From an uncultured Pelagibacteraceae bacterium (GTDB lineage: Bacteria; Pseudomonadota; Alphaproteobacteria; Pelagibacterales; Pelagibacteraceae), in the NCBI GenBank assembly GCA_902574695.1, contig CACGON010000001.1, positions 62,001 to 126,000 of the forward strand: a stretch of 64,000 bases of DNA. Direction: 5' to 3'. Numbering within the stretch: the first letter of the stretch is position 1; each line of letters opens with the position of its first letter. Below the pieces are notes generated by a model. That model was not told where the DNA came from. It was given only the letters and a program-made list of their open reading frames with translations, and ran no database searches. This document shows, one piece after another, positions 55,247-59,280 of this stretch. The position numbers and the translations under genes are program-made.

Positions 55247-55305
55247 ACTCAATTTATCTCATTTAAGGTTGTCCAAAAAGAGATTAAAATGTGTTAAAAT
55301 TAAAT

Positions 55306-58300
55306 ATGTCTATTCAATTAAAAGTTCCAGATATCGGTGACTTTGAACAGGTAGAAATAATTGAGGTAATAGTAAAAGCTGGCGAAAATATAAAAAAAAA
55401 TGATCCAGTAGTAACTCTGGAAAGTGATAAATCAAGTGTTGAGGTTCCCTCTACTGTTGAAGGGAAGATATCAAATATAAGTGTTAAAGTTGGAGACAAA
55501 GTTTCAAAAGGCGATTTAATTCTTGAGGTTGAAGGTAATGGAAAATCTTTACCTGATGAAGTTAAAAAAACAAATGATCAAATACCAAAAAATACAAAAA
55601 ATTTAATTGCCGAAGCTGAGAAAACAATTGAAAAAGAAATTAATAAAGCTCCTGAAGTAGAAAAAGAAACAATCAGAGTCGCTGAGGATAAAATATCAAA
55701 AGTTGTAAGCGACGGTGATATTGATCCAATTGAGACAAAAGAATGGATTGATTCTCTTTCGTCAGTCTTGGAGACGGATGGAGGTAAAAGAGCACAATTT
55801 TTAATCAAACAATTGATAGAGCATTCATACAGACAAGGTTCAGACCTGGTCCTTTCAAGGAATACACCGTATGTAAATACCATATCTCCAGATAAAGAAA
55901 CCAAATCCCCTGGAGATCAAAATATTGAGCGAAGAATAAGATCATTAATTAGATGGAACGCCGCTGCCATGGTTGTAAGAGCTAATAAAAAATTTCCTGA
56001 ACTTGGCGGACATATTGGAACATTTGCATCAGCTGCAACTTTATATGATGTTGGAATGAATCATTTTTGGAGAGCTAAGAATAATAAGTTTGGTGGAGAT
56101 TTAATTTATTTTCAAGGGCATAGTGCTCCAGGAATGTATGCTAGGGCATTTTTAGAAGGTAGATTAAGTGAAAAACAATTAGATAATTTCAGACAAGAAG
56201 TTAATCCAGGCGGATTATCCTCTTATCCCCATCCTTGGCTTATGCCAAACTTTTGGCAATTTCCTACTGTCTCAATGGGTATTGGTCCTATGTTAGCAAT
56301 CTATCAAGCTAGATTTATGAAATATTTGATTAATAGAGGCCTTATAAAAGATGAGGGAAGAAAAGTTTGGGCATTCCTTGGTGATGGTGAAATGGATGAG
56401 CCAGAGTCTATGGGTGCGATTGGATTAGCTGCGAGAGAAAACTTAGACAATTTAATTTTTGTTGTTAATTGCAACCTTCAAAGATTAGATGGTCCGGTTA
56501 GAGGTAATGGGAAAATAATTCAAGAATTAGAGGGAATTTTCAGAGGAGCTGGCTGGGATGTTATAAAAGTAATATGGGGATCATATTGGGATCCTTTATT
56601 AGCAAAAGATAAAACTGGTCATCTTTTAAAAATTATGAACGAAACAGTTGATGGAGAATACCAAGCTTTTAAGGCACGTAATGGTTTATATGTTAGAGAG
56701 AAATTTTTTGGCAAATATGCTGAAACAAAAGAGTTAGTTTCATCTCTATCAGATAAAGATATATGGCGACTTAATAGAGGAGGTCACGACCCCCATAAAG
56801 TTTATGCGGCTTATGATCAAGCTTCAAAAAATAAAGGTAAACCAACTGTAATCATTGCAAAAACAATTAAGGGTTATGGAATGGGTAAAACTGGAGAAAG
56901 TGTAAATACTACACACCAACAAAAAAAAATGGGCGTGGATGACTTAATGTATTATAGAGACAGATTCGATGTTCCATTAACCGACAAGCAGGTTCAGGAT
57001 ATCCAGTATTTCAGACCTAATGAAAATTCCGAGGAAATAAAATATTTGAAAGATCGTAGGATAAAATTAGGTGGTTTTATTCCAGAACGTACTACTTATG
57101 CTAAACAAATAAAAGCGCCTCAAAAAGATATTTTTGATTTTTTGAAAGAATCTACAGGTAAAAAAGAAATGTCTACAACAATGGCATTGGTGAGACTTTT
57201 AACAAATCTTTTAAGAGATAAAAATGTTGCCCCGAGACTTGTACCAATTATCCCTGACGAAGCAAGAACGTTCGGAATGGAAGGTTTCTTTCAAAAAATT
57301 GGAATTTACGCTCATGAAGGACAAAAATATGAACCAGAGGACTCTGAGCAATTAAGTTCATATAGAGAAGATAAAAAAGGTCAAGTTTTAGAAGAAGGAA
57401 TTAACGAGGCAGGATCAATGGCATCTTGGATTGCTGCGGGTACATCTTATACAAATCATGATATTGAGATGATACCTATATACCTGTTTTACTCTATGTT
57501 TGGTTTTCAAAGAGTTGGAGATTTTGCTTGGGCGGCAGGTGACAGTCAAGCCAGAGGCTTTCTAATTGGCGCCACTTCTGGCAGGACAACTTTAGCAGGT
57601 GAGGGATTACAACATCAGGATGGACATAGTCATCTTCTAGCTTCTACTATACCAAATTGTATTTCTTATGATCCAACTTTTGCTTACGAACTTGCTGTAA
57701 TTTTTAGAGAAGGACTTAGACGTATGCATGAAAAAAAGGAAAATGTATTTTATTACATTACAACTATGAACGAAAATTATCCTCATCCTGCTATGCCAAA
57801 AGATAGAGGATGTGAAGATGGTATATTAAAGGGTATGTATAAGTTTAAGGAATTCAACAAAAACAAGAAAACTAAAATTCAATTAATTGGATCTGGGGCA
57901 ATATTAAGGGAAATTATAGGTGGTGCCGAAATACTTCAAAATGAATATGGAATTGATAGTGATATTTGGAGCGTAACTAGTTTTAATGAGTTAGCGAGAG
58001 ATGGTATGGAAACTGAGAGATATAATCTTTTAAATCCTGATGAAAAAAATAAAGCTTCATATGTAGAACAATGTTTAGGTCAATCAAATAACCCTGTTTT
58101 GGCAGCTTCAGATTATATGCGAAGTCACTCTGAACAAATTAGACCTTTTGTAAAAAATAGCTTTTATTCACTAGGAACAGATGGCTTTGGAAGAAGTGAT
58201 ACAAGAAAAAATTTGAGAAAATTCTTTGAGGTTGATAAAGAACATATAGTTACTTACGCACTAAGCGTTCTGTCGAATGAGCAACTGATTTCATCTAAGC

Positions 58301-58365
58301 CAGTCAAAGATGCAATAAAAAAATATAATATTGATACAAAAAGATCCTTTCCAAGTAAATTATAA
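55306..58365 (+). CDS. aceE: Pyruvate dehydrogenase E1 (AceE type) with N-terminal lipoyl domain
   Basis: E1 decarboxylates pyruvate with thiamine diphosphate and reductively acetylates lipoate. Residues from about 145 onward are a homodimeric AceE-type E1: FQGHSAPGMYARAFLEGR, the thiamine motif FLGDGEMDEPES through NCNLQRLDGPVRG, and HQDGHSHLLASTIPN. Residues 1-80 are a lipoyl domain not normally part of E1: VEIIEVIVKAGENIKKND, then DKSSVEVPS with the lipoyl Lys at residue 42, then KVGDKVSKGDLILEVEG, followed by a charged linker of about 60 residues. The E2 that follows lacks such a domain. I use the ATG; a GTG five codons earlier is less likely. Confidence 0.95.
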   Translation: MSIQLKVPDIGDFEQVEIIEVIVKAGENIKKNDPVVTLESDKSSVEVPSTVEGKISNISVKVGDKVSKGDLILEVEGNGKSLPDEVKKTNDQIPKNTKNLIAEAEKTIEKEINKAPEVEKETIRVAEDKISKVVSDGDIDPIETKEWIDSLSSVLETDGGKRAQFLIKQLIEHSYRQGSDLVLSRNTPYVNTISPDKETKSPGDQNIERRIRSLIRWNAAAMVVRANKKFPELGGHIGTFASAATLYDVGMNHFWRAKNNKFGGDLIYFQGHSAPGMYARAFLEGRLSEKQLDNFRQEVNPGGLSSYPHPWLMPNFWQFPTVSMGIGPMLAIYQARFMKYLINRGLIKDEGRKVWAFLGDGEMDEPESMGAIGLAARENLDNLIFVVNCNLQRLDGPVRGNGKIIQELEGIFRGAGWDVIKVIWGSYWDPLLAKDKTGHLLKIMNETVDGEYQAFKARNGLYVREKFFGKYAETKELVSSLSDKDIWRLNRGGHDPHKVYAAYDQASKNKGKPTVIIAKTIKGYGMGKTGESVNTTHQQKKMGVDDLMYYRDRFDVPLTDKQVQDIQYFRPNENSEEIKYLKDRRIKLGGFIPERTTYAKQIKAPQKDIFDFLKESTGKKEMSTTMALVRLLTNLLRDKNVAPRLVPIIPDEARTFGMEGFFQKIGIYAHEGQKYEPEDSEQLSSYREDKKGQVLEEGINEAGSMASWIAAGTSYTNHDIEMIPIYLFYSMFGFQRVGDFAWAAGDSQARGFLIGATSGRTTLAGEGLQHQDGHSHLLASTIPNCISYDPTFAYELAVIFREGLRRMHEKKENVFYYITTMNENYPHPAMPKDRGCEDGILKGMYKFKEFNKNKKTKIQLIGSGAILREIIGGAEILQNEYGIDSDIWSVTSFNELARDGMETERYNLLNPDEKNKASYVEQCLGQSNNPVLAASDYMRSHSEQIRPFVKNSFYSLGTDGFGRSDTRKNLRKFFEVDKEHIVTYALSVLSNEQLISSKPVKDAIKKYNIDTKRSFPSKL

Positions 58366-58368
58366 ATT

Positions 58369-59280
58369 ATGAATGAAAAAAAAAGAGTCCCAGCAAGTCC
58401 AAAAGCTAGAAAGTTTGCTAGAGAATTGGGAGTTAATATCAACTTAGTATTAGGTTCACAAAGAGATGGTAGAGTAGTTGAGGAGGACATTAAAAAATTT
58501 GTTAAAAACGTTAGCCAAGAAAAAAATATACGAGGTAAAAATAAATTCAAATCAGAATTTACGCATTCAGATTTCGGCGAGGTAGAAATAAAAGATATTC
58601 CAAGAATTAAAAAAATAGCTGCTGCACACCTTTCTCATGCATGGAATACAATTCCTCATGTAACAAACCATGATGAAGCAGATGTTACAGATATGGAAAA
58701 TTTTAGAAACTCACTAAAGGATTTGCACACTGGCGAAAAAAAGAAAATAACACCTCTTGCTTTTATAACCAAAGCTTTAGTTGCTACTTTGAAAAAGTTC
58801 CCCTCTTTTAATAGTTCAATTGATGAAATAGAAAATGGCAAAATGACCTTCAAAAAATATTTTCATATCGGTATAGCGGTTGATACCGAGCATGGATTAA
58901 TGGTGCCAAAGATAAGAAACGTAGATCAAAAAAATATTAATCAAATTGCTGAGGAGCTCAAAACTACAAGTGATAAGTGTAGAAAACTAAAAATAGATAA
59001 AAAGGATTTTTATGGTGGCTCAATGACTATTACCAGCCTTGGTGGCATAGGAGGTTCTTTTTTTACTCCGATAATTAATTTTCCTGAGGTAGCAATACTT
59101 GGGATCGGAAAATTGAGAAAGGTTCATTCGCATTCAGGAGGAAAATCTGACGAGAGAATTATGTTACCTCTATCTTTATCTTATGATCATAGGATCATTG
59201 ATGGTGCTGAGGCGGCAAGATTTAATAATGAACTTAAAGAAAATTTGGGTAAAAATTTTGCGTACAGGTTAGCAATCTAA
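58369..59280 (+). CDS. aceF: Pyruvate dehydrogenase E2 (dihydrolipoyl acetyltransferase) lacking a lipoyl domain
   Basis: E2 passes the acetyl group from lipoate to CoA and forms the core of the complex. The protein is only 303 residues. It begins at once with the peripheral-subunit-binding domain (VPASPKARKFARELGV, VVEEDIKKF, residues 6-46) and continues with the acyltransferase domain, ending in the catalytic YDHRIIDGAEAARF. There is no DKA/DKS-type lipoyl domain, whereas normal E2 has one to three. The missing domain is found on the E1 encoded three bases upstream. The E3 gene (lpd) is not adjacent. Confidence 0.94.
   Translation: MNEKKRVPASPKARKFARELGVNINLVLGSQRDGRVVEEDIKKFVKNVSQEKNIRGKNKFKSEFTHSDFGEVEIKDIPRIKKIAAAHLSHAWNTIPHVTNHDEADVTDMENFRNSLKDLHTGEKKKITPLAFITKALVATLKKFPSFNSSIDEIENGKMTFKKYFHIGIAVDTEHGLMVPKIRNVDQKNINQIAEELKTTSDKCRKLKIDKKDFYGGSMTITSLGGIGGSFFTPIINFPEVAILGIGKLRKVHSHSGGKSDERIMLPLSLSYDHRIIDGAEAARFNNELKENLGKNFAYRLAI

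Follow-up and report, generated by a model that had tools for sequence, protein, structure and literature searches.

The swinging lipoyl arm of the pyruvate dehydrogenase complex is normally attached to its acetyltransferase component, E2. Where does a complex carry its arm when E2 has none? This question is raised by two adjacent genes, encoding the pyruvate dehydrogenase component (E1) and E2, at positions 55306 to 59280 of the window, that is, the whole 64,000-nucleotide stretch of contig CACGON010000001.1 (assembly GCA_902574695.1, an uncultured Pelagibacteraceae bacterium) that was analyzed. The genome, 1.04 Mb in 32 contigs and 88% complete, belongs to SAR11. Its closest named relatives are SAR11 Pelagibacteraceae, and among the best 80 of at least 591 places found by E1 similarity, E1 is 95% identical in AG-912-F15. 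SAR11 is described in the accessible text of one study as the most abundant heterotrophic bacterioplankton (PMC10030771). Our data make it very probable that E1 and E2 form a pyruvate dehydrogenase complex in which the N-terminal lipoyl domain of E1 serves as the swinging arm.

E1 carries a lipoyl domain and the neighboring E2 does not

The first-pass annotation of this DNA described an E1 with a complete N-terminal lipoyl domain (Lys42 in DKSSVEVPS), a linker and an AceE body, followed by a 303-residue E2 that opens at the E3-binding domain and has no lipoyl domain. Profile searches bore out both descriptions (PF00364 and TIGR00759 for E1, Pfam profiles for E2). The E1 gene has the following features:

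55306..58365, + strand: E1, consisting of lipoyl domain, linker and AceE-type homodimeric pyruvate dehydrogenase E1, 1019 residues (Pfam/NCBIfam, alignment to E. coli AceE)
55315..55527, + strand: Biotin_lipoyl domain, residues 4-74 (PF00364, 67 bits, cut-off 22.1; barrel in the structure model; Foldseek 1gjx, 1iyu, 1qjo)
55429..55431, + strand: codon of Lys42, the predicted lipoylation site in ESDKSSVEVPS
55540..55713, + strand: charged flexible linker, residues 79-136 (predicted local distance difference test score, pLDDT, below 50 at 78-94 and 111-136; variable among relatives)
55582..55620, + strand: conserved linker motif IPKNTKNLIAEAE, residues 93-105, with a predicted helix at 95-112 (22-sequence alignment, model, census)
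55714..55836, + strand: AceE N-terminal segment, residues 137-177, counterpart of the E. coli AceE piece solved with the E2 subunit-binding domain (9h1n chain C, E-value 1.4e-8)

The lipoyl domain of E1 combines a PF00364 match with a lysine in the DK turn (DKSS). It scores as the type found on pyruvate dehydrogenase E2 (E2p), with 79.5 bits for TIGR01348 versus 35.5 and 40.7 for the succinyltransferase models. Residues 137-1017 match TIGR00759 (aceE) with 1439.4 bits (cut-off 859.9; model positions 4-883 of 885), and this part aligns with E. coli AceE (1l8a) at 1164 bits. The stretches GDGEMDEPES and NCNLQRLDGP and the histidines of GGH, QGH and NRGGHDP, identical between E1 and 1l8a, are what we take to be the thiamine-diphosphate and active-site segments of AceE. 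The PF00198 profile found no acyltransferase domain on E1, which is thus not an E1-E2 fusion of the OdhA type. Although an in-frame GTG at 55291 would give five more residues, the ATG at 55306 is preferred as the start codon because the conserved block among relatives begins at its Met.

The features of the E2 gene are:

58369..59280, + strand: E2 without lipoyl domain, 303 residues (profile matches, alignment to E. coli E2p)
58387..58491, + strand: peripheral subunit-binding domain (E3_binding), residues 7-41 (PF02817, 41.4 bits)
58585..59247, + strand: acetyltransferase catalytic domain (2-oxoacid_dh), residues 73-293 (PF00198, 252.8 bits; aligned to E. coli E2p 7b9k)
59185..59205, + strand: DHRIIDG active-site motif, residues 273-279 (aligned with DHRVIDG of E. 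coli E2p)

E2 therefore has both a subunit-binding domain and a catalytic domain with DHRxxDG. A PF00364 search of its 303 residues gave no match, setting it apart from E2p proteins with a lipoyl domain. Its score for the E2p model TIGR01348, 312.8 bits, lies under the cut-off of 552.1 and covers model positions 280-580 only. Since only three bases separate the E1 stop codon from the E2 start, there is no space for an overlooked lipoyl domain.

E1 holds the only visible pyruvate dehydrogenase arm of the genome

PF00364 matches occur at three places in the window genome, namely SucB (beside SucA), AccB (beside AccC) and E1, and PF00198 matches at two, SucB and the 303-residue E2. These censuses of the window genome revealed neither a second pyruvate dehydrogenase E2 nor a further candidate lipoyl domain, GcvH not being searched for. 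As the other biotinyl/lipoyl domains sit on SucB and AccB, E1 holds the only visible pyruvate dehydrogenase arm. Both lipA and lipB are present. The single Lpd over the cut-off is a 466-residue frame adjoining sucB; it has no PF00364 match in this genome and thus no arm on E3 of the Mycoplasma or Neisseria type. The search for other lipoyl-bearing E2 or E3 genes that the first-pass annotation had suggested yielded SucB as the only other E2. The E1_dh search of the window genome matched SucA and, weakly, two frames of 639 and 654 residues, the length of transketolase/DXS; it found no PdhA-type E1 other than SucA, pyruvate:ferredoxin oxidoreductase not being searched for. The pyruvate dehydrogenase E1 of this genome is one AceE chain, not a PdhA-PdhB heterotetramer.

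In 13 of the 15 genomes with an armless E2 that we surveyed, PF00364 matched exactly three places, in frames of the corresponding lengths, SucB and AccB being assigned by frame length outside the window genome. The exceptions are G056, with a fourth match that is weak and partial (22 bits), and G388 (83% complete), with two places, neither of SucB length. Within this set, lipA was not found in G056 and lipB was not found in G074 (one of the 15 genomes each).

The armed E1 is general in SAR11, whereas the E2 arm is often absent

The lipoyl domain lies in the E1 frame at 171 of the 176 SAR11 loci with an E1; four of the other five are 5'-truncated, and L110 has its lipoyl domain in another frame. 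Some genomes are represented more than once among the 176, and three loci come from the window's own genome. Domain counts were made on 140 complete rows (139 loci and the window). Nineteen loci were excluded because they were cut, incomplete or lacked an identified E2, including L062 and L110, which have space for what is missing and possibly contain broken frames. Another 18 were mostly duplicates, although L053 among them was dropped for a split E2. Some genomes still appear twice in the kept rows (e.g. L088/L149 and L093/L150).

The comparison of aceE and E2 across relatives, also proposed in the first-pass annotation, revealed an asymmetry. E1 has a lipoyl domain in all 140 rows, with no complete loss of the E1 arm among the SAR11 rows examined, while E2 has one or two lipoyl domains in 100 and none in 40. 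Written as (E1,E2) lipoyl-domain counts, 89 rows are (1,1), 40 are (1,0), six are (1,2), four are (2,1) and one is (2,2). Some SAR11 genera have a tandem pair of lipoyl domains on an E1 of 1102-1125 residues (L125/L146, L126/L147, L148, L152, L153, L156).

AceE exceeded the cut-off in 302 of 397 genomes in the search of the order, and the second family of the order (f2) gave no AceE match near the cut-off (best E-value 1.4e-10). In the search of the class, 11 of 385 genomes had AceE over the cut-off: five from SAR11 and six others, in which E1 is without a lipoyl domain and E2 carries one or two. When a lipoyl domain and the AceE N terminus were sought as one piece in 398 Pseudomonadota genomes, only the two drawn SAR11 genomes were among the matches listed, sorted by E-value. 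Seven AceE frames of more than 1000 residues from other Pseudomonadota (L217-L223) were considered as fusions and rejected, none having a lipoyl domain; the 990-residue AceE frame of G579 (L121) has none either. Thus none of the AceE proteins examined from outside SAR11 bears a lipoyl domain; such fusions were sought in the Pseudomonadota draws and, beyond them, among the best 80 of the at least 591 places.

The E1 lipoyl domain is conserved where E2 is armless

In SAR11, all 145 E1 domains retain the lipoyl lysine, as do all 100 E2 domains that are the first or only one of their protein. The first-pass proposal of an E1-borne arm is thus supported by the invariance of Lys42 as well as by the lack of a second pyruvate dehydrogenase E2 and of other candidate lipoyl domains. 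In lineages with an armless E2, the E1 lipoyl domain is mostly under strong purifying selection: the ratio of nonsynonymous to synonymous substitution rates (dN/dS) ranges from 0.009 to 0.117 in 10 of 12 pairs of such relatives. In many of the pairs, synonymous sites are close to saturated.

In the 40 (1,0) rows, the arm is separated from AceE by a linker of 58.6 residues on average, versus 48.2 in the 89 (1,1) rows. Phylogenetic generalized least squares (PGLS) associated the absence of the E2 arm with an E1 linker longer by 5.8 +/- 2.0 residues (p = 0.0045, n = 51).

The arm was probably duplicated before it was lost from E2

The catalytic parts of 57 rows were placed on a tree by a quick method; this tree, which represents the operon and not the species, requires at least eight changes to account for the absence of the E2 domain, all eight forced by starred branches. 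Change counts cannot separate gain from loss; loss of the E2 arm is the natural reading because outgroups and deep SAR11 branches have E2 domains. The number of E1 lipoyl domains takes four changes over the states 0, 1 and 2 on the same tree. In the lipoyl-domain tree, SAR11 E1 and E2 domains stand together (support 92, not starred), apart from those of six outgroup loci from other Alphaproteobacteria, which is what an origin of the E1 domain from that of E2 would predict. Judging from these comparisons, the arm was most likely duplicated onto E1 in the ancestor of this SAR11 family and then repeatedly deleted from E2. The earlier statement that the arm had "moved" from E2 to E1 is not quite accurate: the E2 arm is absent here, but the arm was apparently duplicated in an ancestor, and most relatives are armed on both components.

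Alternatives and counter-evidence

Could the arm be borrowed in trans, for example from SucB or GcvH, with the E1 domain merely auxiliary? Trans supply exists, as OdhA shows in the accessible text of PMC8146983, and SucB has retained its lipoyl domain. However, the SucB domain differs widely in sequence from the lipoyl domains of pyruvate dehydrogenase, with a best identity of 42% and the longest end branch, and it is the E1 domain that scores as E2p type. Moreover, Lys42 is invariant, and selection on the domain is mostly strong in the E2-armless lineages. We therefore consider borrowing unlikely.

Less probable still is an unlipoylated E1 domain with a structural or regulatory role, pyruvate being oxidized by another enzyme. 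Lipoyl-like domains without the lysine do occur in SAR11 relatives, as the second E2 domain in seven rows from five genomes, where the lysine is kept in 0 of 7 and replaced by Glu or Asn. Those domains have diverged, whereas the E1 domain keeps its lysine throughout. The E1 and E2 genes are both under purifying selection, and the PdhA-type alternative enzyme did not appear in the E1_dh search described above.

It is highly improbable that an arm-bearing second E2 hides in the 12% of the genome that is unassembled. The 32 contigs and 88% completeness leave room for one, but ten E2-armless relatives at 94-99% completeness (G017, G028, G036, G044, G056, G074, G086, G088, G090, G115) each contain no more than two E2-like places, one being the truncated E2 and the other a frame of SucB length. 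Both a hidden arm-bearing E2 and an arm on E3 were rejected, being absent from the family censuses of the window genome and its relatives. An assembly or gene-calling artefact joining two genes is hardly credible and was dismissed: L110 and L226 split the parts between frames, maybe through sequencing error, but the window locus has no such sign, and the same E1 architecture recurs across many independent genomes, in records titled isolates, single-cell genomes and metagenome bins.

Several points weigh against assigning the arm to E1. Lipoylation of Lys42 is a prediction from sequence, and the window genome is incomplete. Besides its armed AceE, genome G001 has a second AceE (891 residues) without a lipoyl domain; therefore, AceE can exist without an arm in the SAR11 family. 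The lipoyl-domain tree (79 columns) is poorly resolved and does not recover the E1 domains as one clade; since such a clade is not rejected either (p-AU from the approximately unbiased test, 0.446), one origin is neither shown nor rejected. Two dN/dS pairs are higher than the rest (WIN-L188, 0.375; L186-L188, 0.204). As to the linker, the six (1,2) rows also have long ones (mean 58.3), and L035 (43 residues) and L198 (65, the same as its sister L071) are outliers. The independent-pairs test of linker length points in the same direction as PGLS but is not significant: of 8 pairs, about 3.9 are for and 0 against at thresholds 50 and 52 (median p 0.125), and 2.9 for and 0.1 against at threshold 56 (median p 0.25). 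Because PGLS supports it and the independent-pairs test does not, a longer E1 linker as a response to E2-arm loss is suggestive only.

A second E2 lipoyl-like domain is found at L088/L149, L093/L150, L153, L154 and L155; it is a dead lipoyl domain that has been retained in the protein.

Expected docking of E1 and a proposed model of the E1-borne arm

In entry 9h1n, the AceE N-terminal peptide (chain C) was solved together with the E2 subunit-binding domain (chain A). The corresponding E1 residues 137-177 are expected to dock on the E2 subunit-binding domain here as well. In the linker motif, P94, T97, I101, A104 and E105 are invariant in 22 sequences. One pattern, P-x-x-T-E-x-I-I-x-E-A-E-like, matches the E1 of 107 of the 140 SAR11 rows (36/40 (1,0), 63/89 (1,1), 6/6 (1,2), 1/4 (2,1) and 1/1 (2,2)) and is absent from some clades; it occurs in 0 of 146 E2s within the first 250 residues. 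An AlphaFold model of E1 residues 1-235 (22 close sequences, mean pLDDT 63, predicted template modeling score 0.30) has a lipoyl barrel (blocks 64-81), a disordered linker interrupted by a low-confidence helix at 95-112 that overlaps the motif, and helices at 141-158 and 160-176. The Foldseek matches listed for this model are lipoyl- or biotinyl-domain proteins.

If the E1 lipoyl domain is the arm, the complex may work as follows. LipB and LipA would lipoylate Lys42. The E1 dimer would dock on the E2 subunit-binding domain via the AceE segment just past the linker, as in E. coli, and the arm, about 60 residues N-terminal to the dock, would be loaded with acetyl at one of the active sites of E1. 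The loaded arm would swing to the E2 core, where E2 would hand the acetyl group to CoA. The single Lpd, common with the SucAB complex and held on other E2 subunit-binding domains, would then re-oxidize the arm. The order would be arm, linker, E1 docking segment on the E2 binding domain and core, against arm, linker, binding domain and core in an ordinary E2. Because the arm would lie N-terminal to the docking segment instead of to the binding domain, the tether point would be nearly unchanged, which would explain an easy shift and a dispensable E2 arm. The arm was probably copied from E2 to E1 before the SAR11 family diversified; one copy would then have been enough, and the E2 copy was probably lost repeatedly in streamlining genomes.

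We offer a further set of ideas only tentatively, and regard it as rather doubtful. With arms on the outer-shell enzyme, each E1 dimer would bring two, and arm number would follow E1 occupancy, not the fixed E2 core. The linker helix might be a second contact that aids reach to the core and E3. The E2 arm, dispensable after the E1 arm arose, would have been lost in parallel or, in some relatives, joined by a lysine-less second E2 domain.

Comparison with known systems

Arms on other subunits are already known; an arm on a homodimeric E1 with an armless E2 is apparently new. In Zymomonas mobilis, according to the title of a 1999 report by Neveling et al., pyruvate dehydrogenase reportedly has a heterotetrameric alpha2beta2 E1 with a lipoyl domain on E1-beta. 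In both cases an E1 polypeptide includes a lipoyl domain, but E1 is alpha2beta2 there and a homodimeric AceE here. The lipoyl domain of the Zymomonas E1-beta is N-terminal, and the Zymomonas E2 keeps its own. The pyruvate dehydrogenase of Mycoplasma hyopneumoniae is said to be the subject of a 2003 report by Matic et al., going by its title. There the arm is likewise on a peripheral enzyme, but on E3 instead of E1, and the partner E1 is heterotetrameric. A model for an E2 of about 300 residues without a lipoyl part exists (NF008815, 308 positions), presumably the Mycoplasma-type E2. In E. coli, the arm is attached N-terminal to the subunit-binding domain of E2. The SAR11 locus shares with E. 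coli aceEF the AceE-type E1, the E2p-type core (7b9k) and the E1 N-terminal docking segment (9h1n); however, the E. coli AceE chain (886 residues) starts at the docking segment and has no lipoyl domain, whereas the SAR11 E1 has one.

The accessible text of PMC8421416 gives three lipoyl domains for the E. coli E2. That of PMC7873978 places the arm on E3 in Mycoplasma hyopneumoniae and others, a figure legend naming PdhD as the lipoylated subunit, and on E1-beta in Zymomonas, for which the text says PdhA and the title cited there says E1-beta. In Corynebacterium OdhA, an E1 is joined to an acyltransferase core, and the protein relies on E2p to supply an arm in trans (PMC8146983, accessible text). 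OdhA and the SAR11 E1 are alike in fusing E1 to a part usually found on E2, but OdhA gained an acyltransferase-like domain, while the SAR11 E1 gained an arm and no core. In the accessible text of the open-licence literature, we found no paper that describes the SAR11 arrangement or an AceE-borne arm combined with an armless E2.

Sister lineages that differ in the place and number of arms (2+1, 1+1, 1+0) provide a natural experiment on position, number and tether length in channeling. The finding would also help annotation, as the truncated E2 falls under curated E2 cut-offs.

Other observations

The second AceE-like E1 of G001 (L224, 2422-5097, - strand) lies beside a DctP-like gene and has no E2 among the listed neighbors in 8.5 kb. 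A paper on SAR11 IIIa mentions aceEF and extra aceE copies, with no arm mentioned in its accessible text (PMC10030771); the armless second AceE of G001 fits those extra copies. At L226 (1229-4295, - strand) and L110, the lipoyl and AceE parts lie in different frames, broken within the A-rich linker, which may reflect a sequencing error or a genuinely split gene. Finally, G056 contains a PdhA/PdhB-like pair (L225, 2436-4468, + strand) that has neither an E2 nor a lipoyl domain next to it, in surroundings that look like a sugar-nucleotide or cell-surface gene cluster, the names at this locus being assigned by eye.

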